Below, piece by piece: positions 1-64,000 of a DNA stretch of 64,000 bases. The stretch spans positions 139,001 to 203,000 of the forward strand of contig JAPMOS010000058.1 in assembly GCA_027972325.1 (NCBI GenBank). The letters are read 5' to 3'. The notes under the pieces are model-generated. The model was not told where the DNA came from. It worked only from the letters and a program-made list of their open reading frames with translations, and searched no databases. The DNA comes from Paratrimastix pyriformis. Taxonomy: Eukaryota > Preaxostyla > Paratrimastigidae. Every line of letters begins with the position of its first letter. The first letter of the stretch is position 1. The translations under genes were made by a program, and so were the position numbers.

Positions 1-2174
1 GGTGTGGTGGCTGGCGCAGGCTGGGGGGCGGAGCGGACCATGGCCAGGACGAGGCAGTATGCGAGGAAGGGGCCCAGCGATGCCGAGGCCGGGGAGCGGA
101 CCCCGCCCAGGGTCGCCTCGTAGGCGCACTCGCTCGACCACAGCCGTCCGGTGGCCGTCAGGTTCCCCGGCGAGGCTGCCGGGGCCCACCACCGCGGCAC
201 AGAACGGAAGGAAGGGTCAGGGGCAGGCCAATGGTGGAAGAATCCCTGGTTGAGTCATGCCGGGGCCAAGGGGCATGGGGACACGGGACAAGGGGGTATG
301 GATGGGTGGCACGGGGGCACGGGGACGGGGGTATGGGGCCGACCGAGGGTGAGGTTGATGGCCAGCACGTATGCGCACCGCTCCCGCTCGGCGGCCGGGT
401 GGGGCGCCTTGGGCACCCTGCACACCAAGAAGATCAGCAACCCCACCCCGCCAACCGATGAGCCCGGGCGTGCGAAACGGGCGTGGGTGAGGGACGTGTG
501 TGTGGTAGGCGGGGACCTCCTTGGGCCCAGGGCGAGCCGGTACCAGCGGAGGATGTCCTGCGGGTCGGAGCTGTCGAAGGGCAGCCAGGACTCGTCGTCC
601 AGCAGCTGCTGCAGCAGGTCCTGTGGGGCCGATCGGCGGGGGGAGGTGGGGGGGGAGGGGAGGGGGGAGGGGGTAGAGCGTGAGGATGGTTTGACTGGCG
701 TATGGGAAGGGAGGGGGCTGGGACGGACGGGCTGGCTGTTCTCGGTGGTGGCCTCGAGGCGGCCCTCGAGGGCGCGAGGGCCCTGGGCGAGCACATCGGC
801 GCCCCCATCGCCCTCCGAGCGGCGGCCCGGGAAGGCCCGCGCCAGCAGGGCGAGCTCCTCCTCCCCGGGCTGCATGTCCAGCCGCGCCCTCCGGCCCGGG
901 GCCCTGGGCGGGCCCAGAGGCAGAGACAGAGGCAGAGGCAGACCAACCCGGCCGGTTGCCAGGGCGAGCGGGCACCACCACGGATGAGCATCAGCATCAG
1001 CATGAGCATCAGCACAACCAAACCCCATCGGGCGCCAGGGCAACCCGAGCACCGCCGGGGGGGGCGAGCGTCATGGGCCGCCCAAACACAACAAAAAGGC
1101 CGCGGGGCGGACCCTGCAGATACATCTGCTGCTGCCGAGATCGCCCGCATGGCCGCCGGGGGGGTCGTGGCCGGGGGTGTTGGGGAGGATGTTGGGGGGG
1201 AGGGGGAAGGGGAAGGGGAAGGGGAGTGGAGGGCGGGTGCGGCCGGGGAGGGGGAGGAGGGGGGGTGGGGGGGGGTGGCCGAGGCCGATGTGGCCAGGGA
1301 GAAGTCCGGGAATGACCCCGGGGCGGCCCCCTCGGCCAGGATGAGCCCCAGCGGGAAGGGGTACGCCAGGGCGCTCATGTTGGCCCGAACAAGCTGCACC
1401 CCCGCCACCACCAAGCCATCACCCAAGCCATCACCCAAGCCATCACAAGCCACCACCCAAGCCACCACCCAAGCCGCCATCGCCAGGCATGACGAGCAAC
1501 AGGAAAGGACGGAATGATGAGGCCAGGGCGCACACCTTGCTCCGCCACCTCTCCATCATCACCACCGCCACATCAGCATCAGCACCAGCATCAACATCGT
1601 CAGCATCAGCATCGTCATCATCAGCATAGGGGGACAGCCGACCTCGTGTGGGGACTGGAGGAGGATCCCGTCGCGGATGGTGCGGCTCCGCTCCATGTTG
1701 ATGACCATCCCCTCGGCCGTCTCGTTGTCCCCGATCGGCGGGAAGGTCCGCACGATGGGCTGCCCCACCGAGCGCCGCAGCAGCATCGCCAGACGGGGTG
1801 AGGGCAGCAGCAGTCCCCGGAGATTGAGGCTCAGATCGGTCTCGCTCCAATAATCTCCATCTCGCAGGCTCGCCATTCCCTGGTGAGACAATGCAGGAGA
1901 ATGCGCGAAAAAAGGTGTGGTGGCCGACCTGGGCAAAGACGAAGGGGGAATGATCGGTCGAGAAAAAATTGAAGTGGATGCCAAGTTTCCCGGATGTATG
2001 CCCGAAAATGTTCTCGTTTGGCAAGATGTTTGATAAAGATTGTGCCCACGAGCCACGGAACACTGTACTCAACGGGATCCGAGCCGGGTCGTTATCCTCA
2101 TCGGCTGCGTGGACCACCGAGAATAAGAGAAAGAAAAGTAGGGATCGGCGAAAAACACGCGGGCGGAGTGGCAT
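1..2174 (-). CDS. Signal-peptide lumenal/membrane protein, possibly Tul1/Dsc1-like E3 ligase (partial, runs off window)
   Basis: The ATG at 2174 begins a clear signal peptide (MPLRPRVFRRSLLFFLLFSV...) followed by an ectodomain-like sequence. Exon 1 ends in ...FVFAQ and is joined through a short intron (donor GTCGGC) to an exon reading GMASLRDGDYWSETDLSLNL and ...GMVINMERSRTIRDGILLQ. Further exon pieces lie near 1395 (NMSALAYPFPLGLILAEG), 900, 600 (LLQQLLDDESWLPFDSSDPQDILRWYR), 400 (RCAYVLAINLT) and 150 (NLTATGRLWSSECAYEATL). The last two recall the lumenal part of the Tul1/Dsc1/FLY transmembrane ubiquitin ligases, where a C-x-Y strand is followed by a G-x-L-x-S-x-x-C motif just before the membrane helices. 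The membrane and RING parts would lie outside the window. The signal peptide is secure; the family is a tentative inference. Introns hold GC-rich filler. Confidence 0.45.
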
Positions 2175-2445
2175 CGGATCGTGGAAGCCACGCTGCGTCT
2201 GTGCCTGCTCGCGGCGGATCTGCCGCGTGTAGCCTGAATGGCCTTTAGGTTCTAGCGGTAAATCAAGAAATTCAGCGTCCTTCCCAGAGAGACACGTGTT
2301 GGGCCGGGAACACGACAGCAAGAGCCAAAGGGGAGAGGCTGAGGTGTGGATTCAGAGGGTAGAAAAGGGAGGGGAAGCTTTGACAGCCGTTGGTGACAGG
2401 ACTAGTTGGTTCCCCCACCGGTTCGCGCCGTGCAGGTAAAATAAA
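2175..2445. other. Intergenic space between two divergent genes
   Basis: This holds the upstream regions of the minus-strand signal-peptide gene and of deoxyhypusine synthase. It is AT-richer than the gene bodies. I see no clear TATA box or other motif. Confidence 0.5.
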
Positions 2446-3213
2446 ATGCAGCCACAACAGCAGCAGAAGGAAGAACAACCCACTCTTGCCAAGGAGGCCG
2501 TCCTTGTCCAATCTGTCCCTATGACAGATGGCATTCCCGTTCGGGGATACGATTTCAACCGTGGTCTGGACTACGCCGCCATGCTCGATGCCTTTGCCAC
2601 GACGGGATTCCAGGCCACCAGTTTCGGCCGTGCCGTTGATGAAGTTAATCGAATGGTCTGTCCCGGATTCCACCACGGGGGACACTTTTTCCTCATCATT
2701 GACACACATCTCTCTCTCTCTCTGTCGTCGTAGCTCCACTGGCGTCTGAGCCAGGAGCCCATCAAGCCGGACGAAGACGATGCCATGAAAATCATGGCCA
2801 ACCGAGAGAAGGTGAAGACCACCATCTTCTTGGGGTACACCTCGAACCTGGTGTCGGCTGGCACCCGGGACACCATCCGCTTCCTGGCCCAGCACCACCT
2901 CGTGGACGCCATCGTCACCACCACCGGCGGCATCGAGGAGGATTTCATTAAGTGCCTCGCACCCACATTCCTGGGCGACTTCGAGCTTGATGTCTGCCTC
3001 CTCCCCCCCCCCCCCCCCCCCCCGCCTCTCCCCGCCTCTCCCCGCCTCTCCCCGCCTCTACCCGCCTCTCTTTCACCGCCCTCGTTCACCGCTCGCCGAC
3101 CACTCGACCACCGAACCTGGTCGTGCCCAACGACAACTACTGCAAGGTCCGCTCGCCCCGCCGATCCCTTCCCATTCCTCATACGCCCTGTCCGTTCCCC
3201 GCATGGCCGGTGC

Positions 3214-3282
<69 letters not shown>

Positions 3283-4420
3283 GATGGGGGTGGTGGTGGT
3301 TGGGGCGCAGTTCGAGGACTGGATCAACCCCATTCTGCTGCAGATCCTCAACGAGCAGAAGTCCCAGGTCTGGCGCGGCTATCACCCCCCCCCCCCATCG
3401 GGCCGCCTCCCTCCCCCACGTTCACCCCAACCCAACCCAACCCAACCCAGCACACTCACGTTTGGTGGGGGTTTCTGGGGGTGAGCAGCACATCAACTGG
3501 ACGCCCTCGAAGATCATCGACCGGCTGGGCCGCGAGATCAACAACCCCGAGTCGATCTACTACTGGTGCCACAGGGTCCGCACCTCGCCCCCAATGCCAC
3601 GTCAGGCCACACTGCCGGGCAGGACACACTGCCAGGCAGGCCACACGTCAGGCCCCCGGCACGTTCTCACCCCCGTCTCCCATCCCCTGGCCCACCCTGC
3701 CCCCCGCCATCCCGCCCCCCCAGAATCAAATCCCGGTCTTCTGCCCGGCCTTCACGGACGGCTCGGTCTGTCTGGGGTCCCCCCCCTGCCGTGGCTGCCG
3801 TTGCATCCACCCACATGAGCGCCCTCTTCACGCCCTCTCTCCCCTCTGGGTCTCCCCGCACGCCCCATCGGCACCCAGATCGGGGACATGATCTTCTTCT
3901 TCTCCTTCAACCACCCCGGCCTGGTGGTCGACCTGGTCGAGGGTCCGCCTGCATCCCCGCCCCCCCAGCCGCCCCCACCCCCACCACCGCCATTCCATTC
4001 ATCTGCCCTCCCTCCCTCCCGCCCTCCCCGATTGCAGACATCCGGAAGATCAACATGATGGCCATGAAGGCCCCCAAGACGGGCATGGTCATCCTGGGGG
4101 GCGGCGTCATCAAGCACCACATCTGCAACGCCAACCTGATGCGCAACGGGGCCGACTTCTCCGTCTACATGAACACCGCCCAGGAGTTCGACGGCTCCGA
4201 TGCCGGCGCCCGGCCCGACGAGGCCAAGAGCTGGGGCAAGATCCGGGCCAATGCCAGCGCCGTCAAGGTGTACGGTGAATGCACCCTGCTCTTCCCGTTG
4301 CTCGTCGCCCAGACATTTGCCAAGGCCGTCTTCCCTCCGGCGGCCTCGGCGCCCGCCACGGCCACCTCATCTGCGGCGGCATCGGATGCCGCCGCCACTC
4401 CTGCCGCTCCCGCCCAGTAA
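2446..4420 (+). CDS. DHPS: Deoxyhypusine synthase
   Basis: This enzyme transfers the aminobutyl group of spermidine to one lysine of eIF5A, the first step of hypusine formation. Exons by homology: 2446-2655, 2734-2991, about 3114-3146, 3311-3367, 3489-3575, 3724-3765, 3879-3942 and 4038-4420. Recognisable blocks are [96 protein letters not shown] and [20 protein letters not shown]; the last contains the catalytic lysine (SWGK). The length of about 377 residues fits the family, and an Ala-rich tail is extra. All seven donors are GTCTG or GTCCG. About 14 residues expected just before NLVVPN, and an AG acceptor for that exon, cannot be found (see findings). An intron at about 3147-3310 holds a long TTG repeat. 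The CDS lies about 140 bp before the next gene on the same strand. Confidence 0.95.
3213..3281 (+). repeat. (TTG)n microsatellite in a DHPS intron
   Basis: About 23 near-perfect trinucleotide units lie in the intron between the NYCK and FEDW exons. Open frames across it (poly-Val, poly-Cys, poly-Asn) are not coding. Confidence 0.95.
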
Positions 4421-4563
4421 ATGGTGAATCATCTTGGTGGTGGATTCAAACGATTGAATCGGTTGAACCAACCATTCTCTTTTTCCGTGCACCACCTTTC
4501 TCTTTTCTCTTGGTGAGAACCCCAGATTCCACATGCCGGTGCCGGAAAAACCCGAGGGAGAGA

Positions 4564-5634: not shown

Positions 5635-5742
5635 GCGGAGACGCGCCCCCGCGCCACGCGCCAGATCGCAATTTTCTGGGAGAGCGGCGTATTCCCTGGG
5701 GATAGCGGAGCTATTGCGAGGCGAACGGGAATCCACAAAATC

Positions 5743-6891
5743 ATGCAGGCACCCACGCCAAGACCGCCACCAAAACAGCTTAACCAGAGCATCATCGATG
5801 TATGGAACGATAACCTCGAAGAAGAAATGGCCAAGATTCGCGACCGTGTCGAGACACACCCATACATAGCCATGGTCTCATCGACTTTTTCTGTCTCTTC
5901 GCCTCACCTCACCCCCTGGACCCTTCACCATATCCATTTCCGTTCGACTTGGACGCTCAGGATACCGAGTTCCCTGGTGTTGTCGCCCGACCCGTTGGTT
6001 CGACCTTCAAAAGTGATTATCAGTACCAGAAGCTCCGCCTGAACGTTGATATCCTCAAAATCATTCAACTGGGGTTGACATTTGCCAATGACCAAGGGGA
6101 TATGGTTCCCGACTCATGCACGTGGCAGTTTAATTTCCGCTTCAACATCAAGTCCGTCTCCTCGCACGATCTCGTCCCACATTCATCGTCTTCACACGAC
6201 CTTTTTCTGCCCTCGCGTTTCAGTGAGGACACATATGCCCAGGATTCCATTGAACTTCTCCAGACTGCCGGCATCGATTTTGACAAACACATGAAGCAGG
6301 GGATCGACGTCACTCAGTTTGCTGAACTTTTGACGGCGTCCGGGGTGGTGCTGAACGACGGTGTGCACTGGATTACCTTCCACAGCGGCTACGACTTTGG
6401 ATACCTCCTCAAAATCCTGACCTGCAAGCCGCTCCCAGAAGGGGAAGCCGAGTTCTTCGAACTGCTGAATCGGTTCTTCCCCTGCATCTATGACCTGAAG
6501 GTCCTCACCAACACCAAGCGGGGCCTCAACCACGTCGCTGAGGAGATGCAAGTCAGTCTCCCAAATGCGCACCAGCGGGTCGCTCACCGCCCACTCTGCG
6601 TGCCCCTCCACTTCGCAACAGGTACATCGGATTGGGCCCAACCACCAAGCGGGAAGCGACTCGCTGCTCACGTGCGGCACCTTCTTCCAAGTCAAACAGC
6701 AGCTCTTCAAGGGGGCCATTGACGACAAGTTCCTTGGCCAGATCTGCGGCCTGGGCGAATGCTCCAGTCGGTTCGAATCGGCGTACTCTCCTTCTGACCT
6801 GCCCATTGTACAACACGGGGCAGTGGGGGCCGTGGGGGCCGGTGGATACAATGCCCCACTACTGGACATGTCCTCCTCGGCACCGGCCTAA
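5743..6891 (+). CDS. CNOT7: CCR4-NOT deadenylase subunit CAF1/CNOT7
   Basis: This DEDD-type 3'-5' exoribonuclease of the CCR4-NOT complex shortens mRNA poly(A) tails. Exons are 5743-5874, 5961-6151, 6224-6551 and 6622-6891, giving about 306 residues, close to human CNOT7/8. Motifs in order: [17 protein letters not shown] (catalytic Asp and Glu), [63 protein letters not shown] (catalytic Asp), [11 protein letters not shown] and [15 protein letters not shown] (fourth acidic residue, NHQAGSDSL). All four DEDD residues are present. Donors are GTCTCA, GTCCGT and GTCAGT. The gene lies 108 bp after the phosphodiesterase stop. It looks fully intact and the assignment is secure. Confidence 0.96.
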
Positions 6892-7720: not shown

Positions 7721-7744
7721 GTTAGTGCCGCCTCGGAGGCTAAC
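7721..7744 (+). promoter_or_regulatory. Bulged hairpin motif, copy 1, upstream of the membrane-protein gene
   Basis: GTTAGTGCCGCCTC is followed after one base by GAGGCTAAC. GTTA pairs with TAAC and GCCTC with GAGGC, with a 5-nt bulge on the 5' side; the 1-nt loop is too tight for the full inner stem here. Copies occur at 43701 and 48981 in the same orientation, each upstream of a plus-strand gene. This copy ends 26 nt before the proposed ATG at 7771, so it may be in the 5' UTR. Confidence 0.6.
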
Positions 7745-7770
7745 TAAAACCTTCAAAAGAGAATTAAACG

Positions 7771-9000
7771 ATGCAGGTCGGACAGAAAGCTATGGTCACA
7801 GCGTCCTTCGGGGCGATGACAACGGTCTGCCCAAAGGGCGGCCTGGGAGTTGACCCCATAACCTCCCCTAGGCCTACGTTGGGTTCTTGCTGGGGATGCC
7901 GAAGGTTCTCTTTCCGCTTCCAGCAACTGATGTGTATCGGCTCCATTCTCTGCTGCCATTGATGCCTGCAAGTTACACATTCCTAATTGCCCCCGTCATT
8001 CATACCATGCTGCTGGGTCTTGTTGTGTGCCAATGGATCTCGCGGAAGGGCGCTCGCACCATCTTGAATGAGACCGTTCGTCGGAACGGCCTGATCCTCT
8101 CTCTCAGCATGCTCACCAACGTCGTTTGGTCTGTCCTCTGAGAAGTAGGTGATTTCCAACTCGCCGGCGACACAACAAATAGGATGTACCTCTTCAGCCG
8201 GAACAGCCAACTCTACTCGTGCCTCGCGATGATGGCTCAGGCTGTGATGCTCTCGACTTGCGCGACTGACATCCACGCCATCCTGCCGCAGCCCATTGCT
8301 CGGGGTGCTGGCAGGATGGAGACGAAGGGCAAGATGTGGCTCAACCGGGCCAAGGACGAACTGACCCGCTGGGATGTGATCTTGACGCAGGGGACTGTCA
8401 GCATGTCTGGAGGAGCACCCCCAAATCAATCCGACCACCGCCCCCGACCAACAGGTACACCGCGTTCTCTTGGTGGGTTGCCATTTTGCAGGGGGCCCTC
8501 TTCCTGGAGTCGCGTTACTCCTTCCTGATGGGCCTCTTCCGCCATCCTGTGGCTTCTTCGGCCCTCATCCTGCTGGCTATGGTTCAGGTCTGGTGGTGGA
8601 GTCAAACACTCGCTTTCACTTTTTCTTGTCCCCACTCCGCCCCGGTCCCTCGACCCCCCGTTACAGACCTGGTCGAACATTCAGACTGGCGAGGTGTTCT
8701 CAACGATCACCAGCCTGTGGATGCTCGTTGGAGTGCTGGTAAGCAGTGCTTCCAAGAAAGAGGTGCCCACCATTGTCGCATCGTCTGCACACGAGCCCCC
8801 CTCCCCGGATCGTTCACACCCTTCGGTTTAGCTCGGTGGGTATGAACTTCATTGTCATCTTTGGCCTTGTCATGGCCGCCCTGGGCCTGGGCCTCCACCG
8901 GATGCCGTTCATCACGTCCATGCTTGGAATGAAGAGCAAGAGGCGCGCGTCACAGCCAGCGACAAATGTGCCCATCCAACCCACTGTGGCGGCACGTTGA
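7771..9000 (+). CDS. Unknown multi-pass membrane protein
   Basis: A six-base first exon (ATGCAG, 7771-7776) is followed by exons 7872-8128, 8183-8404, 8455-8587, 8667-8782 and 8832-9000, all in frame, giving about 300 residues. Donors are GTCGGA, GTCTGT, GTCTGG, GTCTGG and GTCTGC. Hydrophobic segments: FLIAPVIHTMLLGLVVC, LILSLSMLTNVVWMYLF, FSWWVAILQGALFL, SALILLAMVQ, ITSLWMLVGVLV and FIVIFGLVMAALGL. The C-terminal tail is basic (MKSKRRAS). I do not recognise the family; a TMEM33-like protein was considered but the sequence does not match well. A canonical-looking GTAAGC at about 8741 appears not to be used, because splicing at GTCTGC (8783) keeps the frame and the last membrane segment. Confidence 0.75.
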
Positions 9001-9100: not shown

Positions 9101-10640
9101 CTAGGGGAGAATGGGGGAATCAAACATCGCAAAATGAGGCCAAAGCGAGCCGACAGACTTGGGATTGGGGTTGAGAATCAAGCGAGGGCCAGAGGAGGAT
9201 GGAGGGAAGTGGGGGGGCTTGTTCTTGGGGCTGCTGGGTGCCCCCAGGGAGCCCGACGAGGGCGGGTACTGGTAGAGGTTCGGGTTGAGGGGGAGGCTCT
9301 GTTCGAAGGGGTCGTACGCCACCGTGTGATGGGTGGGGGTGCTGGGCGCACGGTGGGGCACGACCCGGGCCGGCGCGGGGGGTGGCGTGGAGGCCGTGGC
9401 CAGGGCCGGCCCTGCCGGGCGGAGCACAGCTGGGATGCGGGGCGGGGCGGGGCGTGGGGCGGGGAGACCAGCCAGGGGGACGGTCAACACTCCATCACCA
9501 ACCAGAAAGCGAGGCAGCGGGGCCCGAGCAACGGGGGGGATGGGTGGCGGACCCGGGGGGCGTGAGACGGCCGCGCCGTGGTCGTCGAAGAGGGCCGCCG
9601 CAGGGTAGGTCTCGTCTCGGGCCCCCTTCCGCAGGGCCATCATCGTCTCGCCCCACTGGTCCGCTGCACCAGCCGCGACCGGGGTGTGGATGGAGGGGGT
9701 GAGGATAGCGGGGGGTGAGGATAGCGGGGGGTGAGGATGGCGGGGGGTGAGGATGACAGGGGGCTCTGGGTGACTGGGGTGAGGGCGGCCGCGGGCAGGG
9801 CATGCGGACCGCGGGGCGGAATGCGCTGGGGGGCCTCGAGGGGCGGTGTGCCTGGGGGCTGGAGGCCCGCCCCGGGGGCCCCGGCCGTGGTCTTGGCGGG
9901 GACTCCGGGCACCTCGCCGGCGGGGCGATCCCTGTCCCGGTCCCGGTCCCGATCCCGGTTGGCCAGGGCGGGGGTGCCGCTGCTGGCCAGGATGACGGCC
10001 GCGCTGGCGGCGGCGAAGTAGCGCTCCTCCTGGGATCGCTCGAACTGCAGCACAAGCCGCTTGTTGGTCTCGACCTCCTCCCGCTCCTGCGCCCCCACAC
10101 ACCACACACACATGACACATGACACGACGGCACACCACACATGAAGTGTGCTTGTGCTGTGTGTTGTGTTGTGTTGTGTGTTGTGTTGTGTTGTGTGTTG
10201 TGTGGTGCTGTGCTGTGCTGTGCCCTGTGGTGCTGGCTGGGGCTGGGGCTGGGGCTGGGGCTGGGGCTGGGGCTGGGGCTGGGGCTGGGCTGGGCTGGGG
10301 CTGGGCTGGGGCTGGGGCTGGGCTGGGGCTGGGGCTGGGGCTGGGCTGGGGCTGGGCTGGGCTGGGGCTGGGCGGGACCTTGGCGTCCCTGACGGCGGCG
10401 GCGGCGGGTGCCGAGGCGGCGGCCACGTGGCGGCCCAGGTCCGAGTCGGCCGGCACGGCAACTTGCCGCATCTGCGGCCCACGCAGCAGCCCCCAACCCC
10501 ACGGTCCCACCACGGGCCACCCGGGCAAAAGGGCCGATGGGGGGATGGGCAGACACGGAGGCAGGGCATCCCGATGGGTGCGTGGTGGTGGATGCTGATG
10601 ATGGTCGTGTGATGATGGATGGTAATGTGATGATGGTCGT

Positions 10641-10735
<95 letters not shown>

Positions 10736-13700
10736 GGTGGTGGTGGTGGTGGTGATTGAATGATGATGCAAATGCTGGTGATGATGATGGTGGTGGTGGT
10801 GGTGGTGTTGACGGGGTGGGGTGTGCGGGACGGACGACGGGCTTGTTGGCCCGCTTGAGGAGCACCCTCACCATCACCTGCTGCTCCCGGGGAGCGCCCT
10901 CCTCCTCGGGCTCGTCCTCCCCTGCGCCGCCCCGTCCCGCCGGCATGGTCGCAGCGAGCGAGCGAGCGGCCAGCAGCACAGCGGCAGGAACCAGAGAGGG
11001 GGCCCCGAGTGAGCCCGGGATGGATGCTCGCCCGATACAGCACTTCGGGGGGGCGGGGGATGCGGCTGGGCGGGGGGGTGCGGGGGGGTGCGGGGTGGGT
11101 GGGTGGCGGACTGTCGGATTGCGTGGCGGGCCGATCGGGCCGTTCGGGCTCGGGGGCTGCCGTCTCGAGCTCCTCGAGGGGCCCGCTGCTTGCCCCCGGT
11201 GTGGCCGGCCGGCCCCCCAGGGCGCCCGCTGCCCCCGCCGCGGTGCCGGCCAAGGGGGTCAGTCCCGGGGCCGGGGCGGGGGCGGGGGCCGGGGAGGCGG
11301 CAGTGGGTGCAGAGTCCTTGAGGAGGCGCAGGGGCAGGGCCAGGTCGAGCCGGCCGCGGCGCTGGGCCAGGGCCCCCACCGCGTGGGTGGCCGCCAGGGA
11401 GTCCTGCACCATACGCTCAAGCTCCCGGTCCAGCTCCTGTCTCGGCCCCCCGGCCCGGAGACACAGGCACAGACACAGACACAGCCAGGCAGCCATGCCG
11501 ACATGGGAGACACACAGGCACAGCACACACAGCCAGGCAGCCGTGACGAGATATGGGGAGTGAGGACGGCCCCCAGGGGGGGGGGGGGGGTGGCGGACGG
11601 CGGATGCAGTGCGGGACAGGGTGCCGTGATGGAGCCCCTGATGGAGCCCTGGGCGGGGCGGGAGGCCATTTGTGGCATGGGATGCGATGGGATGCGATGG
11701 GATGCGATGGGATGCGATGGGGGATCGGGATGGGGATGGGGGATGGGGACGGGGATGGGGATGGGGATGGGGACGGGGATGGGACGGGGGACGGGGATGG
11801 GGACGGGGATGGGATGGGGATGGGGACGAGGGATGGGATGGGGATGGGGATGGGGATGGGGATGGGATGGCCTGCGGACGTCCTCTTCTGGGGCGGGGGC
11901 CTGGGGACGGGCGCCTGCTTGGGCTTGGCCTTGGCCTTGGCAGCGGCAGCCTGGGCGGCCGCCTCCTCGTCGTCGTCCCCCTCGCCCTCGCCCTCGGCAT
12001 CTTCCCCGGCCTCCTCGGCCTCGGGGCCCCGGGTGCGACTGGGGCCCCCAGACAGACAGCACCCGCACCCGCACCCGCAAAACACAGGGGCGCCCCCCAT
12101 GAGGGGACCCCGTCGTCACAGGCCACCACCCAGCCGATCGATCACAGGGGACCCCCAACCACAGGCCACCATCCCTCCATGCAACCCCCCAGGGTGGGGG
12201 GCCGCGCGGATGGGCGGATGGGGGGGGGGGGAGGGGGGGGGGGGCGGACCTCGTCGGTTGTGGTGTTGAGGTCGAGGTCATCGTCGTCCTCATCCTCATC
12301 CTCATCCTCATCGTCCTCGTCCTCGTCATCGTCATCCACCTCGGCCGCCCCGTCCAGCCCCTCGCCACCCGCCGGCACACCCTCGGCCTCCTCTTGGGCG
12401 CCCACACCCGCACCCGTGGCCACTGGGGGCTGCTGCTGCTGCTGCTGCTGGTGCAACTTGGGGATGGCCGCTGGGGGCGGCATCACCGGACCGGGGGCGG
12501 GTGCGGGTGTCGGGGCGGGGGCGGGCCGTGGCGGGGCGGCAGCTGGGGGCGAGGGCGACCGGGCGGGTGGTGGCGGCGGGCTGCCGGGGGCTGGGGGCGG
12601 GCTGCTCGCGACGACGGGCGGCGGCGGCGGGGGGGACATCGCCCCTCGGGCCGCCGCAGGTGGGGCCCCCAACCGGCCGTCAAGGGCAGTCGCGGCCTCG
12701 TGGGCCGGGCCGCTGCCTGCTGCTGGCGGGCCCGCGGGGGCTGGGGCGGCCTCATGCGGGGGTGGCGGTGAGGCGGCCTGCGGGGCTGCCGGCTGGGGCT
12801 GGGCTGGCGGGGGGGCTGCCGTGGTGGCGGTGGTGGTGGTGTGTGCGGGGGTGGCGGTGGCGGCGGCTGGGGGCGAGGCGGCCTGGAGGCTGCTGCTGCG
12901 CGGGGCGGCGTGGAAGGGGCCGGCGCTCGAGAAGGCGCCCCGGGATGAGGGGCCCGCGCCCCCGGCCGCCCCGGCCGCCCCGGCCGCCCCGGCGGAGGGC
13001 CGGGGGCCGAGGCCGAGGTGTCCCAGGATGGCCGACTTGCCGCGGCTGGAGAGCCCAAGCCCCGCGGGGCGGCCCGGGGTGCCGATGGGCGAGGGGGTCA
13101 GGTTGATGGCGCCCCCGGTGGGCCGGCCCCCTGCAGGCCCCGGCGCTGCTGCTGCTGCTGCTGCTGCTGGGGCGGCGGTGGTGGCGGTGGTGGTGGTGGC
13201 GGTGGCGGTGGTGGTGGTGGGGGCAGGGCGAGGCTGGGCGCTGGGTGCTGCATGTGGGCGGGGCCGTCTGGGGCCGCGCCTGCGAGACGGCGGCCGCCCT
13301 GGGGGCCACTGCTGCCTGCTGCTGCTGCTGCTGCTGCTGGGGGGTGGTGGCGCCGGCGGCTGTGGGGTGGTGCTGGGCGGGCGGGGCCATGGCGGTCTTG
13401 ATGGGGGCCGCCGTCAGGGCCACCCGCTGCCGGGCCGCCCGGTCGCGCTCCTTCCGCCTGCGGGCCTCCTCGGCCTCCCGCTGGAGGGCCACCAGGGCCG
13501 CGTCGATCTGGGCCACCGACAGGTACCGTCGCGTATGCAGCAGCGGGGGCACCAGCGGGCCCGTTGGGGCCGGGGCAGGGCAGGGCCGGGGCATGGGCGG
13601 GTCTGCTGCCGGGTGGTGGTGGTGGTGGTGGTGGTGGCTGGGGCCTGGGGCTGTGGGGCGGTGGCGGGGTGGGGGCGGCGGCGGGGGCGGCGGGGCGCGT

Positions 13701-33400: not shown

Positions 33401-35154
33401 TTTTCACGAAGAGCCGCTGCTCGTCGAGCCCTCCAATGCCCCGTGCCCCGTGGTGCCCCGTGCCCCAGCACACGGACCTTGCCGGCCCCCTTGACGGAGA
33501 CGACGCGCAGGTCCTTCTTAAGGGCCTCCTTCTCGGCCTGCAGCACGTTGTTCTGGTCCTCCAGGTACTTGCACTGCCCAGTGGGGGGGGGGGGGGAGAG
33601 GGGGGAGGGGTGAGGAGGGAGGGTGAGTGGTGCCCGTTGTTGTTCTGGTCCTCCAGGTCCTGGCACTGCCCAGTGGGGCGAGGCGAGGCGAGGCGAGGCG
33701 AGGCGAGGCGAGGCGAGAGAGGGTGCAGGCAGGCGCACCTTGACCGTGAGCTCGGCGCAGCGCTTGCATGGGGCGGGCTGGCCCTCGGCGGCGGGCTGGC
33801 CGGGCGACGGGACGGTGGGCGGGTAGGCGAAGCCCACCGCCATGGCCATGGGCCCCCCCGCCCCCACGGCCCCCCCGCTGCTGCTGCTGCTGCTGCCCGC
33901 GCTGCCCCCGGGGGGTCCGCGGGTGGGACGGCGGCAGGGCGGCGGCGCCCGGGGGTGGCGGGGTCTCGCTCACCCGGGGCGGGGCCGCCTGCCCGGATGT
34001 CGGGCCGGGCCCCGCGGACCCGGCTGCTGCTGCTGCGGGCGCGGCCCCAGCAGGGGCGGCGGCAGAGGCGGCCGGGGGGGCGGCCGGGCCGGGGCCCGAG
34101 GGGACCGAGCCCAGGGCGGCCGTCAGGTGGGAGACGTCCTGCTGCAGGGCCAGGTTGCGGCGCAGGGTCTCCTGCAGGATGCCCGTTAGCATGGCCACGC
34201 TGTCCCCGCCCTGCGCCCCCGCCCGCCCCCGCGAACACCACAAAGGATGCCAGTTGTGGTGGTGAGGAACGGGCTGAGCGGCTGCTGAGCGGGCGACCAA
34301 ACCAGAAGCCAAGAAGGCGCTGGCGGACGGGCAGAGCAGGGCAGAGGGCATGGATGGAAGATGGGCAGGGCAATGGAGGGCGCGGACCTTTCCCCCCCTG
34401 GCGGCCACGTCCTGGAGGGCGCGCTTGAGGCTCTCGTTGTCGGCCCGCATGACTTCGATGGTCTCCTCCAGGAACTGCAGCTTGGCCTCGACCTGCGCAC
34501 CCCCAGGCACCCGCCGCATCCCCCCATGGTCAAGATCGTCGCCGAACAACAACAACAACGTCATCATCATCATCATCACCAGCCATCGTCGTCGTCATCA
34601 TCGCCATCATCATCGCCATCACCATCCAACCAGCACCATCCAACCAGCACCATCCAACCACCACTATCACATCACCATCACACCCGCATCATGCATCGAC
34701 ACTTAGCCCCCCGACCCGACCGAGCCGGCCCGAGCAGCCCAGAGCCGAGGTGGCCCGCGGGGGGCGGGACATGCGGACCTGCTTGCAGTGGCGGCACGAG
34801 GCCGCGGCGCCCCCGATGGCGGGCAGGGCCAGGGCCGCCCCGACACCCGGCCCGGCCGCAGGGCCGCCCACCGGCAGGGACCCCGGGAGGACCATCAGGG
34901 GGCCGAGCCGGCCTGGGCGAAGCGCTCGCGCTGGAGGGCCCGCTTGAGCTCGCGTACCTGCTGGTCGGTGCGCCGCTGGGCCAGCAGCAGCTCCGTCCGG
35001 GCGTCCTCCAGGTCCCGCTGCAGCCCGTGCAGCTGCCCAACCTGCCCGCCCCCCACAGGCGGCCCCCCGGGATGCCATCAAGGCGCCATGATGAGAACGA
35101 TGGGATCATGGCAGTGGTGGTGATGAATAATGATGGTGATGATGGTGATGATGG

Positions 35155-35225
<71 letters not shown>

Positions 35226-38048
35226 TCGGGGGGATGACGGGGGGATGACGGGGGGATGACGGGGGGATGACGGGGATGACGGGGGATGACGGGGGATGAC
35301 GGGGGATGACGGGCGGGGGTGGCACAGTGGGGGCGGGGGTGGCAACAGTGGGGGCGGACCAGGTCGGCGCAGCGGACGGCCTGGGCGATGAGGTCCTCCT
35401 GGCCCATGGCCCCATAAACGGCCTGCTGCCCCGCCTGCTCGCCCCCCACACGCACACACGGTGAGTGAGGTGACGGCTGACTGGAGCCCAGTCGCAGGGG
35501 GGCCAGTCGCGAGGGGCGTGGACGTGGACGGTGGGGTGGATGGTGGACCCACGAGGGGCAGACGCAGGGCGGGCATGGACGGTGGGGCGGCTGAGCGGCT
35601 GGCCAGGAGGGGCAGGCGTGTGGGTGGGGCGGCTGAGGGGCGGCTGAGGGGCGGCTGAGGGGCGGCACGGGCCTGGGCCTGGAGGGCGTCCAGCTGCCCC
35701 TCGAAGCTGCTCGCCCGGGCCTGCGCAGCCCTCAGGGCCGCCTCGGCTCCCTGCCGCCACCCACGCCACAGACACAGAGACACACGGACACACGGACACA
35801 CGGGCACACAGACGAGACACAGGGGCACACAGGGGCACACAGACACACGGGCACACGGGCACACGGGCACACGGGCACACGGGCACACAGACAAGACACA
35901 GACAAGACACAGGGGCACACAGACACACGGGCACACAGACAAGGCGCAGGGGCACGAGGAAGATGCGGCGATGAGTGGAAGGGACCGGGCCAGGGGGCCA
36001 TCCCGCAGCCAGCCGGGCGGGGCAGGGGAGCCGTGGCGGACGTCGGCCCGCTGGGCGGCGAGGGCGAGTGCGCGCTTTGCCCTGTCGGCCTCGGCCAGCG
36101 CGGCCTCCTTGGCGGGCCGCAGGGCAGCCAGCTCCTGGCCAAGCGAGGCCGCCTCGGCCGCCAGACGCTGCCGCTGCTCCCGCTCCCGCTGCACCGCCAC
36201 GTCCTGCTGGGCCCCAACCTGCACCCACCAGGCCACGGAGCCGCCCCACGCACCAGCCCACGCCAAGGCCACGCCGCCACAATGGGCGACCCGGGCCCCG
36301 ACAGCAGCAGCAGCAGCAGCATCCAAACGTCCCCACGAAGGCCACGGGAGGCGGACGGGTGAGCCCTCCCGCCGTCACCGCCGCCACGCACCGCCCCCTC
36401 GCCGCCGGTCCGTCGAGCCATTCCGGGCCATCGCCCAGGGCCTGGCGGGACCCCCCGGGCGCCACCCTCCACACCCAGCAACAGCGCCCCTCGCCCCCAG
36501 GCAGTCAGCCCACCCCAGGGCGTGGCGGGACCGCCGCCAGGCACCCCACTCGCCCCCCCCCCCCCCCCCCCCCCGCCCCCCCACGCACCCCCACCCCACC
36601 CCTCCCACCCCCGGGCAACCAGGCCAGCCCAGGGCGTGGCGGGACCTCGTCGAGGCGTGCCCTGAGGGCGGCCAGGTCGACGGCCGCCTGGGCGACCCGC
36701 TCGTTGGCCTCGGCCCGGGATGTCTGCAGCTCACGCCGCAGCTGGGCCGCCTCGGCCTCCCGCTGGCCCTGCTCCTGCGAGGCCTGCACTCAGACATGCC
36801 AGCCCACATCGGACCACCCGACCGCAGCAAAGATGAAGATGGCTGGCCCTGCTCCTGCGAGGCCTGCACTCCATGCCATCCCACAGCACGTCCGCCACCG
36901 CACCCGCCCCAGTTGAAGATGGCCTCTGCCGGTCGTGCCCGCCTCTGCATGGGCGCGCGATGTTGTCGTCTGCGTCGCTGTGTGTCGGGGCATGTCGCTG
37001 TGTGTCGGGGCATGTCGCTGTGTGTCGGTGCATGTCGCTGTGTGTCGGTGCATGTCGCTGTGTGTCGGTGCATGTCGGGGCATGTCGGGGCATGTCGCTG
37101 TGTGCATGTCGGTGCATGTCGTTGTGTGTCTGTGTGTGTCGGGGCATGTCGGGGCATGTCGGGGCATGTCGGGGCATGTCGGGGCATGTCGGGGCATGTC
37201 GGGGCATGTCGGGGCATGTCGGGGCATGTCGGGGCATGTCGGTGCTTGCGAGGGGGAGGAGGAGCCAACGAGGGACCTGGGCCCTGGCGATGTCGAGGTC
37301 GTGGAGTCTGCCTGTCTGTGCATGCGAGGGGGAGGAGGAGCCAACGAGGGACCTGGGCCCGGGCGATGTCGAGGTCGTGTAAGGCCTGGGCGAGCCGCTG
37401 GTCGGCTGCCTGCTGGGCGGTTGCGGCCTCCTGGAGGGCCCCCTGCCGGGCGGCCTCGGTGTCGTCCTTCTGGTGGGCCCGGGCCTGGGCAAGCTCCTCC
37501 TTCAGGGTGGCCACCTTGGCCCGGGCCTTCTGCCGCAGCCCCTCCAGGTCCGCCTGGGCCTTGGCCTTGCCCTGCGCCGCCCACAGCCACCCCCGCCGCA
37601 TCATCATAACCATCCAAGCATCATCGTCATCATCACCATCACCATCACCATCACCATCATTCACGCTCTAGCATCGTCCGCAGTGAGCATCGGCTGCCCA
37701 GCGGGGGCGGGGCGGGGCGGGGCGGGGCGGGGCGGGCGGACGGCGTCGATGTCGGCCTGCAGCCTGGCCCGGAGGGCCTCCAGCTCGGTGGCGGCCTTGC
37801 GCTTGGCCTCGTCCAGCTCGGTGGCGGCCTTGCGGCGGCACTCGTCAAGGTCGGCGGCCCCCTTGCGTCGGCACTCGTCAAGATCGGCAGCGGCCTTGCG
37901 GCGGGCCTCGTCCAGGTCCGTCCGGGCCCTGCCCAGCACCCAACCCGCAACCCCACCCCCAGCAGCAGCAGCAGCAGTGACAAGCACAGGTCAGCGGAGC
38001 ACACGCCTGTCCATCGCAACACCCGCCGGGCGGGGCATGGGATGGGCA

Positions 38049-52333: not shown

Positions 52334-53972
52334 TCAGAGATGGGAAGGGAGCAGCCCAGCCCGGGCGAGGCCGCCCCTTGGGCACTGCAGGATGCTGAGG
52401 GTGCACCCTTCGGCCAGGGCGCCCGAGTCGCGGGCCCACTGGTCCCAGGCGGCCTTGAGGCTCTGCAGGGGTCCCATCAGGGGGCCCGCCAGGGGCGCGG
52501 CCGGCATGGGGGCCGAGGGGCCCGTGAGCCCGGGGGCCGACGGGTCGGGGGCCTGCACCCAGGCGGGGGCCGTGGCAGCCAGGCCCACGTAGAAGGTGGC
52601 CGGGTGGGAGCACTCCTCCGAGCAGACCGTGATCGGCTGCCCCTCGGCCGCTGGGGGGCGGGGCGTGGACAAGATCGGGTGATGAGCTGCTGGGGGGGGG
52701 GGGGGGGGGGGGGGGGGCTGGGGGCCTAATTGCTGCACGTTCATGTGGTCTGGGCGGGGCGGGGCGGGCCGACGGACGGGGGGCGGGGCGGATGCCGGTC
52801 AGGTAGCGGTCGAGGGGCATGGCGAAGAGGGTCGGGCTGGCCCCCTCGATCTCCTCCAGGAAGCCCGCCAGCCGGCTCTGCTCCCAGCAGCCCCCGCCCA
52901 AGATCATGGCCATCATGGAGGGGAGGGTTGACATGAGCAAGGAGGTCATGGGGGTGGGGTGCGGGGTGGTCGGGGCGGGGCGGGTGGGCTGGTGCGGGTT
53001 TGGCCTACGGACCTCCATCCAGCCGCAGGCCTCGGCCTGGCGGAGGGGGCTGGAGGCGCGCAGGTGGAGGATCAGGTAGGCCGGGCACCGCTCGAAGAAG
53101 GGCGCCTCCTCGAACAGGGCGGCCCACTCTGCCGCCACACACACCCACGCCACCCGCCGCCCCCCGAGTCGCCATGAATGAAGCCGCCGAACACCTAATG
53201 GAAGGGGCGCAGGCCCAAGCGGGGGGGAGGGAGGGAGGGGGGCGGGGCGGGGCGGGGCGGGACGGGACGGGACGGGACGGGACTGGGGGCGTCAGGCGGA
53301 CCCTGGGTGGATGCGGCCCGGGCCGCGAGGGCGGCCGCGCGGCGCCACTCGGCCTTGAGGATGAGGGCCGTCGAGCGGGTCACGTGGCGGGCCGTGTTGG
53401 GGTGGGGCGGCACCGGGCTCAGCACGGGCGCCCGCCAGTCGGCCGGCTGCTGGGGCTTCCAGAGGCCCCAGATCTCCTGCGAGGCCCCCCCGCGCCCGGC
53501 GGCGGGGGCAGGGGCGTTCGCTGGGGCGGCCGGGTCGCACCGGACGGGCCGCGGCCAGGCCCACTCGGCAAGCTGCCACCACCACCACCACCACCAGCGT
53601 CCCCGGGGGGGCAGCCAGGTGGCGCCAGGTGAGGTGTGGGGCGTGGGGGGCAGGACGCATGTGGGGCGTGGGGGGGCATGGGGCATGGGGCAGGGCTCAT
53701 GTGGGGCATGGGGCAGGGGGCGTGCGCTGACCATGGCGAAGTGGTCGCGGACGAGGGCCGCCAGGGCATCGGGCCCGGGGGCCGTCGGGGGGTGGGCCGC
53801 GTGGGCCAGGCAGGCCGCAGCGGCGGTGATGGCGTGCGAGATGCCCCCGTAGAAGCCCAGCGCGCACGAGCTCACCCCGCGCGCCTTCGCCTGTCCGCCC
53901 ATCCACATCCCCCACCGGCCCGAGGCGAGCCCCAGCAGCGATGATGATGGTGATGGTGATGGTGGTGGTGGT

Positions 53973-54016
<44 letters not shown>

Positions 54017-57000
54017 AGGAGGAGGAGGAGGAGGAGGAGGAGGAGGAGGAGGAGGAGGAGGAGGAGGAGGAGGAGGAGGAGGAGGAGGAGGAGGAGGAGG
54101 AGGAGGAGGAGGAGGAGAGGTCCCCCACCGCCTGTGCTGCCCGCCCCTCGGCCAGTGGGAGGGGGCAATACCGGATGGCGGGTGCAGGGTGTCCACGGGT
54201 CACGGGGGGGCAGGGCGGACCCATGCGCGGACGGCCCTGAGGAGGGCCCGGTAGGTGGCCAGGTCGGGGACGGCCTGCAGCAGGAGGGGCGCCTCGTGGA
54301 GGGCCGCCAGGGCCAGGGCCGAGGCCCCATCGAAGCGGCCCCGCAGCGACCGGGCCCCGATCCGCAGCGGGTGCTGCCACCACTCGGGCCCTGCACCACG
54401 GGGGCACGGGGCCACGGGGGCGCATCACCAACCCCCCAAACCACCCCCAAACCAGTGCCGGCACACGCACCCGCAAAGACAGGGGCAACCCATGAGGGCC
54501 GCCCAGGCCCCAGCAGCAGGGAAGGCCAGGCGGAGAGTGGGCTCCCGGGGCGGCATGCGTGTGTGTGGGGCGGCTGGCGGCTCCTGTGCGGACCGGCGGG
54601 GGCGTGGGGCCCGTAGGAGGCGTACTGGAGGTCGACCTCGAGGCCGCGGTAGCGCAGTTTGCAGACAGGCACCAGCGCGTCCGCCACCAGGCGCACGTAC
54701 TCGAGGCCCTCGCCCCCCGCGGCCACCAGCCGCTCCCGGAGGGCCTCCAGGAAGGCGGCCCCCTGCAGGGCGCCCGGCCCGATGCAGAGCAGGTCCAGGT
54801 CGCTGCCCGGGCCGGCGACCCCGAGCAGGTGCGACCCCAGCGTGAACAGCACCTGCCCACCCACCGCCCAGCCGCGCGCCCGGCCCCCCCGTCAAGCCAC
54901 CCCCCAAGCCCGGAAGTCACCCATGAGCGCGCCGCTTGGGAGGAGCCGCCCCACGGGACCGCCCACCACGACGGGGAGGGGGCAGCGGGTGCTAGGGAGG
55001 TGGAAGGGGCGGCGTACGGACGGGCTTCTCGGCGGCGGGGGGTGGAAGGGGGCGGTAGGGAGGTGGACGGGGCGGCATACGGACGGGCTTCTCGGCGGCG
55101 GGGGGCGGAGGGCTGACCCATGCCGCCCCCCAGACGATCTCCGTGCAGATGGTCTCCAGCAGCCCCACAACCTCCCTGCGCACCTCGGCCCGGGCACGCG
55201 CCGCGGCCCCGTCAGCCTCCTCGCCCTCGTCCCCGTCGGCCTCAGCCTCAGCCTCGGGCTGGCCCCTCGGGGGGGCGGCCGGCTGGCGGCTGGTGGCGGC
55301 GCAGGGCAGCTCGGCCTCGTCGGCGGGCCGTGCGTGGCGCTGCCAGAGCCAGGCGCTGCCCTCGCCCGTCCCGGCGGGGGCCCCCCGGGCGCAGGCCGGC
55401 TGGGTGGCCGCTGGGGCGGCCGGGCCGGGGCCACTGGGGCGGGGGGCGGGGGCGGGACCACACGTCGCCGTTGCCGTTGCCGTTGCCGCTGCGACCGAGG
55501 CGGGGGCCGGGGCCGGGGTGGGCGGGGCCGGGGCCGGGGCAGCCGCGAGGGGGATCCGGTGGACCACCCGGAAGGGCCCGTCGCCCGAGCGGGCGATGAG
55601 ACACACCTCGCGGGCCGTCCAGTGGAGCGGCCGCCATCCCGGCTGCCACTGCTCAGCACGCTGGCGCGCCTCCTGCCGGGGCGGGGAGCGGGGCGGCAGG
55701 CCACACCGAGGCGGGGCGGTGGGGCCAGGAAGAGCAAGAAGCGAAGAAGAAGCGAAGAAGCGGTGAGGGCCGAGGGGTGGGTGGGTGGGTGGTTGGGGTT
55801 GAGGTTGGGGTCAGGCGGGGGCTGGGGGCTGGGGGGCTGGGCTGCTGGGGGCTGGGGGCTGGGGGCTGGGGGCTGGGGCGGGGGCTGGGCGGACGATGCG
55901 TGTCTTGAAGGCGCCGACGGAGCAGTGGGGCGTGAAGCCGCCCTGCTCGGTGCCCTTGAGGGCCAGCTCGTTGCACTGCGGGTAGAGACCCTCCAGCACC
56001 CGCTGCAGCCGCTGGATGGCCGTCAGCCGCCCGGCCCCGGGCTCCTCGGGGGCAGGGATCCCCGCGCCCCCACCGCAGCACCCGTCCCCGTCCGCGCTGC
56101 AGCAGAACGCAGGCACAGGCACACACAGGCACACAGACACACAGGCACACAGGCACACAGGCACACAGGCACACAGGCACACAGGCACACAGGCACACAG
56201 GCACACAGACACACAGACACACAGGCACACAGGCACACAGGCACACAGACACACAGGCACACAGGCACACAGGCACACAGGCACACAGGCACACAGGCAC
56301 ACAGGCACACAGGCACACAGGCACACAGACACACAGACACACAGGCACACAGGCACACAGACACACAGACACACAGGCACACAGGCACACAGGCACACAG
56401 ACACACAGGCACACAGGCACACAGGCACACAGGCACACAGGCACACAGGCACACAGGCACACAGGCACACAGGCACACAGGCACACAGGCACACAGACAC
56501 ACAGGCACACAGGCACACAGGCACAGACACACAGGCACACAGGCACACAGACACACAGGCGCACAGGCACAGACACACAGACACACAGACACACAGGCAC
56601 ACAGGCACACAGACACACAGACACACAGACACACACACACACAGACACGAGACATGGGGCATGAGACACGAGACGGGAGGGCCGCTGGGGCGGACAAGCG
56701 ATGGATGCGGGGCGAGGTGTGGGCAGGGCGAAGGACACGAGCGGGACGAGGCGGGTGGGGGCATGGCTGCGGACCCGCCCGGGATGACGTCGGGCCTGAG
56801 CCAGGTGGTGCTGGAGCGGGCGTGCTCGAAGTAGCCGAACTGCCCCAGCCGGATGTGGATCGGCCCCAGCGGGCTCACCGCTACGCCCCCCAGGGGGTCC
56901 CGCCAGAAGGATCGTGCGGATGATGATGGTGGGGATGACGGGGGACGGGGACGGGATGATGACGGGCGGCAGAGACAGGTGGGTGGGTGGCGGACCCTGC

Positions 57001-61661: not shown

Positions 61662-62024
61662 CAAGGCGAATGGTGCCTGTCAGCGGTGGGTGGAGGGACG
61701 GGTGCCCGGGGTGTGACCCTCTTGGATGGGAGATGGCGACAGACATCTGCCGCCACACGACGTGCTTCGCGAGAAAATACACGCCCGGCACATTTTCCCC
61801 CTGCGGACCTCTTTCAGCAGCACAATTTTCCCCATTCCCCCAAACTGCCATCATTTGATACATGCGTGCGCTCGCCATCCGATCGGTCAGGACTGTTGGA
61901 AGAAGCGAACGACATCGTTGCTGCACTCAAAGAACAATATCATCGGCTCCGCCGACCCTCCAGGGCTAAAATACCGCCTTCTTGAGGCCGCCTTGTGGTT
62001 TCCTCAGTCAGGCATTGAGCTATC
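61662..62024. other. Intergenic between the RNA-repair gene start and tRNA-Val
   Basis: About 360 bp of moderate GC with no recognised motif. Presumably holds the promoter of the minus-strand RNA-repair gene. Confidence 0.55.
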
Positions 62025-62098
62025 GTCCGGGTGGTGTAGTCGGTTATCACATATGTCTCACACACATGAGGTCCTGGGTTCGAATCCCAGCTCGGACA
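62025..62098 (+). tRNA. tRNA-Val (anticodon CAC)
   Basis: The 74-nt cloverleaf is clear. The acceptor stem GTCCGGG pairs with CTCGGAC (one G-T), followed by discriminator A. The D arm is GTG...CAC around TAGTCGGTTAT, containing the A box TGGTGTAGTCGG. The anticodon stem is TATGT/ACATG with loop CTCACAC, so the anticodon is CAC (Val, codon GTG). The variable loop is AGGTC, and the T arm CTGGG/CCCAG around TTCGAAT includes the B box GGTTCGAATCC. There is no intron and no encoded CCA. Confidence 0.95.
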
Positions 62099-62100
62099 CA

Positions 62101-62105
62101 TTTTT
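62101..62105 (+). terminator. RNA polymerase III T-run terminator
   Basis: Five T residues start three nucleotides after the tRNA discriminator base. Confidence 0.8.
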
Positions 62106-62156
62106 GCGGCCCCCCCCCCCAAGCCGACCTAACCCCAACCCCGACCCCCCCAAGCC

Positions 62157-62272
62157 CAAGCCGCCCTCCTCCAAGCCGCCCTCCTCCAAGCCGCCCTCCT
62201 CCAAGCCGCCCTCCTCCAAGCCGCCCTCCAAGCCGCCCTCCTCCAAGCCGCCCTCCTCCAAGCCGCCTCCCC
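62157..62272. repeat. 12-bp repeat AAGCCGCCCTCC
   Basis: About nine units AAGCCGCCCTCC, one of them shortened, lie between the tRNA and the GTPase 3' end. The frames through it (Ser-Lys-Pro-Pro) belong to no recognised gene. The rest, to 62524, shows nothing clear. Confidence 0.92.
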
Positions 62273-62524
62273 GGAGAAGCAGGAGCTTGTCCTTTGGATG
62301 TGCGATCGATCAGAAACATGGATCCCCCGCCTCTTCCCCATCCAACTGCCCGTTGGAAACCGCGTGATTCTTGGGGGGTTTCACGCTAATAACAAGCCAG
62401 ACGCGCCAAACACGCGAGTGGAGGGGAAAAAAAGTGTTCAACAAAATTGTGGGGGGGATGGGGGATAAGAGGTACAACAGCGGAGAGGCAGAGGCAATAT
62501 TGGGAAGCTTCTCGCAAAAGCACT

Positions 62525-63350
62525 TCAAAGGATGGTGCAAGCCTTCTTCTTGGGGGGCTGGGGGCGGAACTCGCTGTTGTTAACCCGGCGGATGATCTCC
62601 TCGAAAACATCACGAATCTTCAGGTTCGCCTTAGCGGAGCATTCAATGAAGCCAGCATGGATGCTCTCAGCGAACTTCTTGCCGTCCTCGGTCGACACGG
62701 CACGCTCATCCTCAAGATCGGTCTTATTGCCAACAACGACCATGGGAATCATACAGGTATCCTGTGAGTGCCAATGATGATGATGGACCAGGCCATAAAA
62801 GAGGAAAAAGAGAAAGAGCGATCGCAGGGAAGAGAGCTGAGATGAGCGGAACAAAAAAAGAACAATCCACGGACAGGCTTCTGCTTCACCGAGTAGATCT
62901 TGTTGCGCATCTCACGGAGGGTATCCAGAGACTGGGCAGAGGTAATGGTGTAAACGAGAATGAAACCCTGGCCGCTCTGCATGTACTGCTCGCGCATGGT
63001 GCTGTATTCCTCCTATTGGCCCACAACGAAAAAAATGAGAGGGAAAAAGCATCAGCCGAAGAAGCCAACCTGGCCGGCAGTATCGAGGATCTCAAGGACG
63101 CAAGCCTTGCCGTCGAACTCGTCCTGCTTGGTGCACATATCCTCAATGGTGGGATCATACTACCCCCAAAAACAGGTTTCGAAAACGAAGGGGACCCAAG
63201 AAAAAAACAGACGATATCAGTGAAGGACCCACGAGAGTACCGCACAACGATACTGGATTTACCAACGGCACCCGAGCCGAGAACGGTAATCTAAAAGAAG
63301 CATAAGAAACCCAAAGAGCAAAAAAGCACGGTCCCTACCTTATAGTTCAT
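62525..63350 (-). CDS. Ras/Rap-type small GTPase with CAAX box
   Basis: Exons 63350-63339, 63290-63213, 63159-63070, 63012-62875 and 62761-62525 give exactly 184 residues. The protein has the full GTPase set: [18 protein letters not shown] (G1), YDPTIED (G2, switch I Thr), [26 protein letters not shown] (G3 and switch II), VVVGNKTDL (G4), [10 protein letters not shown] (G5), then a lysine-rich end [12 protein letters not shown] is a CAAX box with final Leu, predicting geranylgeranylation and membrane attachment. Effector loop and length fit Ras/Rap rather than Rab or Rho. Donors are GTAGGG, GTCTGT, GTTGGC and GTCCGT, so this gene contains two of the few donors without C at +3. The first exon has only four codons. 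It looks intact. Confidence 0.95.
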
Positions 63351-64000
63351 TTCGCAAATTCAACCCTGGGCTTGCAGACTCTCTCGATCAAATTCCGCCC
63401 CGCCCCGCTCAGTCGCAGGGGGCCAAATTGCCTCTTTCCAGGACAATCATCAAATGGTCATTCAGGACATACACACAAAGCATGTACCATCGGTGGAATC
63501 TTCATCCGGCTTCCATTTCCACATTTCCTTCATCCTCCTCGTTTTGTCTCGTCATGTCACCCACCCACGGCAAATTTTCTCCCTGACCACCCGCAGATGC
63601 CGATCTGGGGGGCGCCAAAATGGCAAAATGGTAGTGTCTTTGGCGTCTGAATGCCAATAATTTTCGTGAATATGATAGCTACGGAACCCTTGGACACACG
63701 GCGGCTCTTTCGACAAAGCACTGTCGTACTCATCCGAACCCTAAACTTCGAATGGGCCGTGAAGCCTTACGTTTCGCCGACGCTCTCGGTGAAGGATAGC
63801 CGAAGTACATGCGAAGTACAGCCGTCACGCTGAAGTGCAGACAGGGACCGTCCCTCTGAATAAGGAAACCGAAAAAATAGACCGTCCGTGACAGAGTCGT
63901 TCCCACCCCGTGGTTTTGGAGATCCTCAACCCAGACCGAATTCAGTCAGGCAATGCGGTCGTCTTCTGTGCCCATTCCTGGTAGCGACGCTCGCGAAATT
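63351..64000. other. Upstream flank of the GTPase gene; no gene recognised
   Basis: About 650 bp of moderate GC. A plus-strand frame at 63372-63650 could be the start of a divergent gene but has no recognisable domain. Imperfect GCCGAAGTACATGCGAAGTACAG-like doublets occur near 63799-63822. Confidence 0.4.

Follow-up and report, generated by a model that had tools for sequence, protein, structure and literature searches.

Introns of the window

The window (here the whole 64-kb stretch of DNA that was analysed, C450:139001-203000) comes from Paratrimastix pyriformis, a free-living protist of the Preaxostyla, and the introns traced in it begin with 5' splice sites, or donors, that are of the form GTYNG in place of GTRAGT. 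We describe these donors, in the window and elsewhere in the genome, together with the U1 small nuclear RNA (snRNA) genes whose altered 5' ends match them. Within the window itself, introns were traced only in a deoxyhypusine synthase (DHPS) gene, a CAF1/CNOT7-like gene, a Ras-like gene and, for a single intron, a membrane-protein gene; in the list, flanks are identical residues among the ten on either side.

2656..2733, forward strand: DHPS intron, donor GTCTGT (P0121, flanks 10/10)
2992..3310, forward strand: DHPS intron of the deposited model, donor GTCTGC (P0121; encloses a conserved exon-like stretch that the model skips)
3147..3310, forward strand: alternative DHPS intron, should the exon-like stretch be a true exon, donor GTCCGC (human DHPS, flanks 8/7)
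3368..3488, forward strand: DHPS intron, donor GTCTGG (P0121, flanks 10/10)
3576..3723, forward strand: DHPS intron, donor GTCCGC (P0121, flanks 10/10; human DHPS 6/7)
3766..3878, forward strand: DHPS intron, donor GTCTGT (P0121, flanks 10/10; human DHPS 8/7)
3943..4037, forward strand: DHPS intron, donor GTCCGC (P0121, flanks 10/10)
6152..6223, forward strand: CAF1/CNOT7-like gene intron, donor GTCCGT (human CNOT7, flanks 7/9; Pfam CAF1)
6552..6621, forward strand: CAF1/CNOT7-like gene intron, donor GTCAGT (human CNOT7, flanks 5/7)
8783..8831, forward strand: membrane-protein gene intron, donor GTCTGC (reading frame only; GTAAGC at 8739 upstream)
63013..63069, reverse strand: Ras-like gene intron, donor GTTGGC (human KRAS, flanks 8/8; Pfam Ras)

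Two genes have introns fixed by proteins of the same species. The DHPS gene of the window encodes the deposited P. pyriformis protein P0121 over 366/366 residues, with donors in agreement that read GTCTGT, GTCTGC, GTCTGG, GTCCGC, GTCTGT and GTCCGC. Elsewhere in the genome, the seven introns of CCT4 are fixed over 460/460 residues by a transcript-derived protein (EukProt GAFH01001239.1), their donors being GTTTGT, GTTTGC, GTTTGT, GTTTGT, GTCTGT, GTCCGC and GTCTGC in order. Every one of these CCT4 (7) and DHPS (6) introns has flanks of 10/10 and one placement that is GT-AG without any reward for splice signals; in CCT4 the unrewarded alignment still allows GT-AG in 7/7.

Within the DHPS intron of the deposited model lies an 11-residue stretch (inside window 2992-3146 and ending at 3146) that resembles NLLVPNENYCK of human DHPS and is skipped by that model. 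No AG acceptor was seen upstream of it inside 2992..3310, and it reflects either a CCCGCCTCT repeat collapsed in the assembly or an unusual acceptor.

In the membrane-protein gene, the original prediction held that an ordinary-looking GTAAGC was passed over for GTCTGC at 8783. The GTAAGC is indeed present, starting at 8739 and not at 8741 as given there. The GTCTGC connects two hydrophobic frames, the downstream one closing with a stop codon. Splicing from 8739 can stay open as well, but only if one of those two frames is abandoned; the reading frame thus supports the choice of 8783 without proving it.

Donor consensus in 14 gene copies

The assembly analysed has 56,060,509 bases in 495 contigs (the published assembly is given as 56,627,582 bp in 633 scaffolds; PMC10703272). 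Introns were traced with a custom protein-to-DNA spliced aligner that rewarded GT and AG and gave zero credit for positions +3 to +6, against a same-species protein for CCT4, PDB chains for five further subunits of CCT, and human proteins. From 71 introns in 16 gene copies, 46 had at least 5/10 identical residues on both flanks, 45 of them were GT-AG, and 41 in 14 copies were non-identical; discarded along the way were 25 introns under the flank threshold and one well-flanked placement that was not GT-AG. The count leaves out the loci of two further CCT subunits, contig C51 and a Prp8 fragment, which were never aligned, as well as the tubulin-like C332 and C446 (weak alignment), C68 and C441. 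Because tubulin paralogues contribute some introns more than once, the independent positions number somewhat fewer than 41; for the genome as a whole, 10,815 protein genes are predicted (PMC10703272).

At +3, 32 of these 41 introns have C, 8 have T and 1 has A; at +4, 25 have T, 10 have C, 3 have A and 3 have G; +5 is G in 39 and A in 2; +6 is T in 22, C in 16, A in 2 and G in 1; and the last exon base (-1) is G in 33, A in 5, C in 2 and T in 1. The donors lacking +5G are GTCTAT and GTATAT, the latter alone carrying +3A. The pattern GTYNG occurs at 39/41 donors against 401 of the 2673 remaining GTs in these regions (Fisher p = 2e-29), among which +3 is C in 31%, T in 26%, G in 34% and A in 9%. 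GTRAG, on the other hand, stands at 0/41 donors, an absence that alone proves little because just 73/2673 background GTs are GTRAG. A count of 7-mers agrees, as a weak control: over 209,185 bases, both strands, AGGTCTG occurs 58 times against 25 for its reversed word, and AGGTAAG 2 times against 34.

These figures bear out the original prediction, which had proposed from 49 donors (given without coordinates) that GTCYG replaces GTRAGT, with C at +3 in 43, G at +5 in the great majority, no GTAAGT or GTGAGT in use and ordinary pyrimidine-AG acceptors; +3T is commoner in our sample (8/41, against 4/49).

All 41 introns start with GT and end with AG, though both were rewarded by the aligner; a pyrimidine precedes the acceptor AG in 40/41; and lengths run from 40 to 463 with a median of 73. 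The motif CTRAY falls within the last 45 bases in 5/41, giving no clear branch-point signal. Donors of the U12 type have the motif RTATCCTT, which was found at 0/41.

U1 genes with a changed 5' end

A search of the genome with the Rfam U1 model (RF00003) returned eight full-length loci, each covering model positions 1-166. All eight begin with AUACAGACCU in place of the canonical AUACUUACCU: nucleotides 5-6 are AG where UU is expected, and nucleotide 11 is U where G is expected. The first 12 bases of U1, which the original prediction had singled out as the place to look, thus hold a changed tip, ATACAGACCTTG, in 8/8 copies; the longer start ATACAGACCTTGCTTGG is likewise common to all, and alignment columns 1-58 are identical throughout. 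Searching with a U1 query from which the first 13 bases had been removed, an approach able to recover canonical-tip copies too, gave the same eight loci and one 32-base fragment.

The RNAs fold into a U1-like cloverleaf of four stems with an Sm-like site. This site, AAUGUUUGG, precedes the last stem, lies at the consensus position in the copy L004, and has the same letters in 8/8. When the RNA is folded by itself, some tip nucleotides are engaged with the Sm-like region, a pairing that protein would be expected to prevent.

Upstream, a CCCATAA element, usually TCCCATAA, ends 45-60 bases before 19/19 snRNA loci (8 U1, 4 U6 and 7 U5; L001-L019), and a TATA-like motif is found at the four U6 loci only. 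The element resembles the plant upstream element. No canonical U1 tip was found behind the shared element. The four U6 loci have the usual core AUACAGAGAAG, and the seven U5 loci the usual core CGCCUUUUACUA.

A search of viral contigs with the 17-base U1 tip gave a single match, in contig L066, which we regard as chance: it sits in open frames of an apparent phage, and Rfam yields no match at this place at E 0.01. When a structured U1 pattern was given the changed tip, it matched nothing in genome contigs or viral contigs; with the canonical tip it matched nothing in viral contigs either, which makes the pattern search uninformative on other lineages.

Pairing of the donors with U1 and U6

In the pairing register, U1 C8, A7, G6, A5, C4 and A3 lie opposite donor positions +1 to +6, so that the two changed letters, A5 and G6, are the partners of +4 and +3 and match +4U and +3C. 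The gain is visible across the 41 donors: from -3 to +8, the species' own U1 makes a mean of 8.02 pairs per donor and a canonical U1 6.39, the own U1 being better at 35, equal at 3 and worse at 3. Mean duplex energies are -8.7 and -4.2 kcal/mol respectively, with the own U1 better at 39 donors and worse at 2. Indeed, when nucleotides 3-6 are replaced by all 256 variants and the rest is left unchanged, ACAG ranks first by Watson-Crick pairs and the canonical ACUU 45th. The altered U1 put forward in the original prediction is therefore borne out at the letters opposite +3 and +4, the expression of these genes and their binding to donors being deduced from sequence; its alternative, recognition by some different mechanism, is not needed.

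The changed tip has a further property: it shares AUACAGA with the ACAGAGA box of U6, whilst the canonical tip shares just AUAC. Consequently, the donor letters read by one of these RNAs could also be read by the other. For yeast, pairing of UGU at +4 to +6 with ACA of the U6 box is described (PMC4383343); in that register GUCUGU is able to pair with U6 over +2 to +6, and the 41 donors average 4.88/7 pairs over +2 to +8. In the cell, U1 and U6 may use the same donor letters.

Other features of the window

A tRNA gene match (62025-62098, 63.4 bits) is the sole Rfam match above cut-off in the window. Simple repeats lie at 10640-10756, 35087-35227 and 53941-54117 and, translated in several frames, give stretches made of just one or two kinds of amino acid. 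A protein search with a window open reading frame that was a candidate for UPF2 gave no match.

Discussion

We consider, with a probability of about 0.92, that the major spliceosome removes these GT-AG introns, and that their donor consensus has moved from GTRAGT to GTYTG (mostly GTCTGT, GTCTGC and GTCCGC) alongside a switch from UU to AG at U1 nucleotides 5-6. U1 5'-AUACAGACCU would pair with AG/GUCUGUAU, G6 meeting +3C (or +3U as a wobble), A5 meeting +4U, and the rest pairing as usual. We infer that the eight genes are expressed, that the resulting U1 binds these donors, and that the two changed together. How might this have come about? Donors of the oxymonad Streblomastix are reported to have +3A, +4U and +5G (PMC1501061), and the shortest path that we can propose would thus lead from GTATG to GTCTG: in such a starting donor, +4U would suit the U6 box and mismatch a canonical U1, and a change of +3 from A to C with U1 UU becoming AG would then restore the full U1 match.

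Could GC-rich mutation pressure instead have made the donors drift, with pairing at +3 and +4 irrelevant and the U1 change incidental? The genome is GC-rich, and +4C is limited to introns of at least 50% GC (10/26 against 0/15), which points to mutation bias. The +3T donors (GTTTGT, GTTTGC) belong mainly to AT-rich introns, 7/8 of them to introns below 50% GC (the C473 region and C474b). Against drift, the 15 introns below 50% GC still show T in 7, C in 7 and A in 1, and the rarity of +3A even there is as pairing with G6 predicts. Considering also that the U1 tip is the best of 256 variants by Watson-Crick pairs and that the first 58 columns are identical in 8/8 copies, we find drift very improbable. 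Slightly less probable still is that a canonical U1, starting AUACUUACC, escaped our searches and carries out the bulk of splicing, with the changed AUACAGACC copies as minor variants. Searches score the best candidates only, and a very divergent U1, or one outside the assembly, would escape them; a diplonemid, moreover, is reported to have a variant U1 beside an ordinary one (PMC12621601). However, a canonical U1 should outscore the eight found on the Rfam model, no canonical tip stands behind the shared TCCCATAA element, and such a U1 would pair worse at 35/41 donors. As for misplaced boundaries hiding ordinary donors, 21/54 well-flanked introns do take non-GT-AG placements when no signal is rewarded, as expected from references 50-60% identical, but the CCT4 and DHPS introns fixed by same-species proteins make this explanation close to negligible.

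Several results nonetheless weigh against our interpretation. When G-U wobbles are counted, at least GCAG, ACGG and GCGG exceed ACAG on average; +4C, in 10/41 donors, mismatches A5, and 2/41 donors lack +5G and 1/41 has +3A. Without rewarded splice signals, a GT-AG placement is allowed in 33/54 well-flanked introns, the remaining 21/54 being, by our reading, mostly displaced copies of the same introns. All eight U1 copies score 50.8-60.2 bits, under the Rfam curated cut-off of 69.5, and double changes occur in 0/53 predicted U1 pairs, the copies being too alike to covary. Partner proteins were looked for by domain searches that read single exons: the search for U1-C gave one zf-U1 protein, L067 (C86:24809-24916), which looks WBP4-like rather than U1-C, and the N-terminal domain of U1-70K was matched neither here nor in control genomes, an outcome that does not show it to be absent. 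One fragment of a METTL16-type domain was found. Downstream in L067, a frame shift is consistent with an intron starting GTCCGT.

We posit, at even odds, a fuller version of this reading: the U1-donor code may have been rewritten genome-wide by matched changes in which the U1 tip copies the U6 ACAGAGA box (AUACAGA), so that U1 and then U6 would read the same letters and their exchange would be a swap of near-identical strands.

A recognition code long thought fixed thus appears to have been rewritten in P. pyriformis. A natural matched change of this kind provides direct evidence, from evolution, that the donor consensus is set by pairing with U1; earlier work, a cross-species study notes, could not clearly connect donor variation with U1 (PMC10599564). 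It also offers a system for asking by what route a multi-copy RNA and numerous donor sites can evolve in concert, and gene prediction tuned to GTRAGT donors will go wrong in this lineage. Among the matches listed in a search of open-licence papers, we saw no report of a matched U1-donor change and no paper treating Paratrimastix and snRNA together; the genome paper has 'splice' once and 'intron' twice, with no discussion of donors in the passages concerned (PMC10703272). The deposited DHPS model already uses these donors, and its makers may therefore have met the motif without printing it.

How does this arrangement compare with known systems? In the human U1 small nuclear ribonucleoprotein, donor choice is described as mainly base pairing with U1, U1-C touching no bases, and U1 nucleotides 1-10 are said not to vary between yeast and human (PMC4383343). 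The human particle, with its GTRAGT donors, and that of Paratrimastix have in common the register and type of pairing, the four-stem fold and the Sm-like site; in Paratrimastix, however, U1 nucleotides 5-6 are AG and not UU, nucleotide 11 is U and not G, and donors are GTYTG. The GTATG donors of Streblomastix and the GTATGT donors of yeast share the +4U and +5G that suit the U6 box, and differ in having A at +3 where Paratrimastix has Y, the yeast U1 being canonical (PMC1501061, PMC4383343). The variant U1 of the diplonemid S. specki is likewise a natural U1 gene with an altered 5' end; one copy there keeps the conserved 5' end, the other has a run of C, and the two fit the donors comparably (PMC12621601), whereas in Paratrimastix all eight copies found are changed and the donors fit them better.

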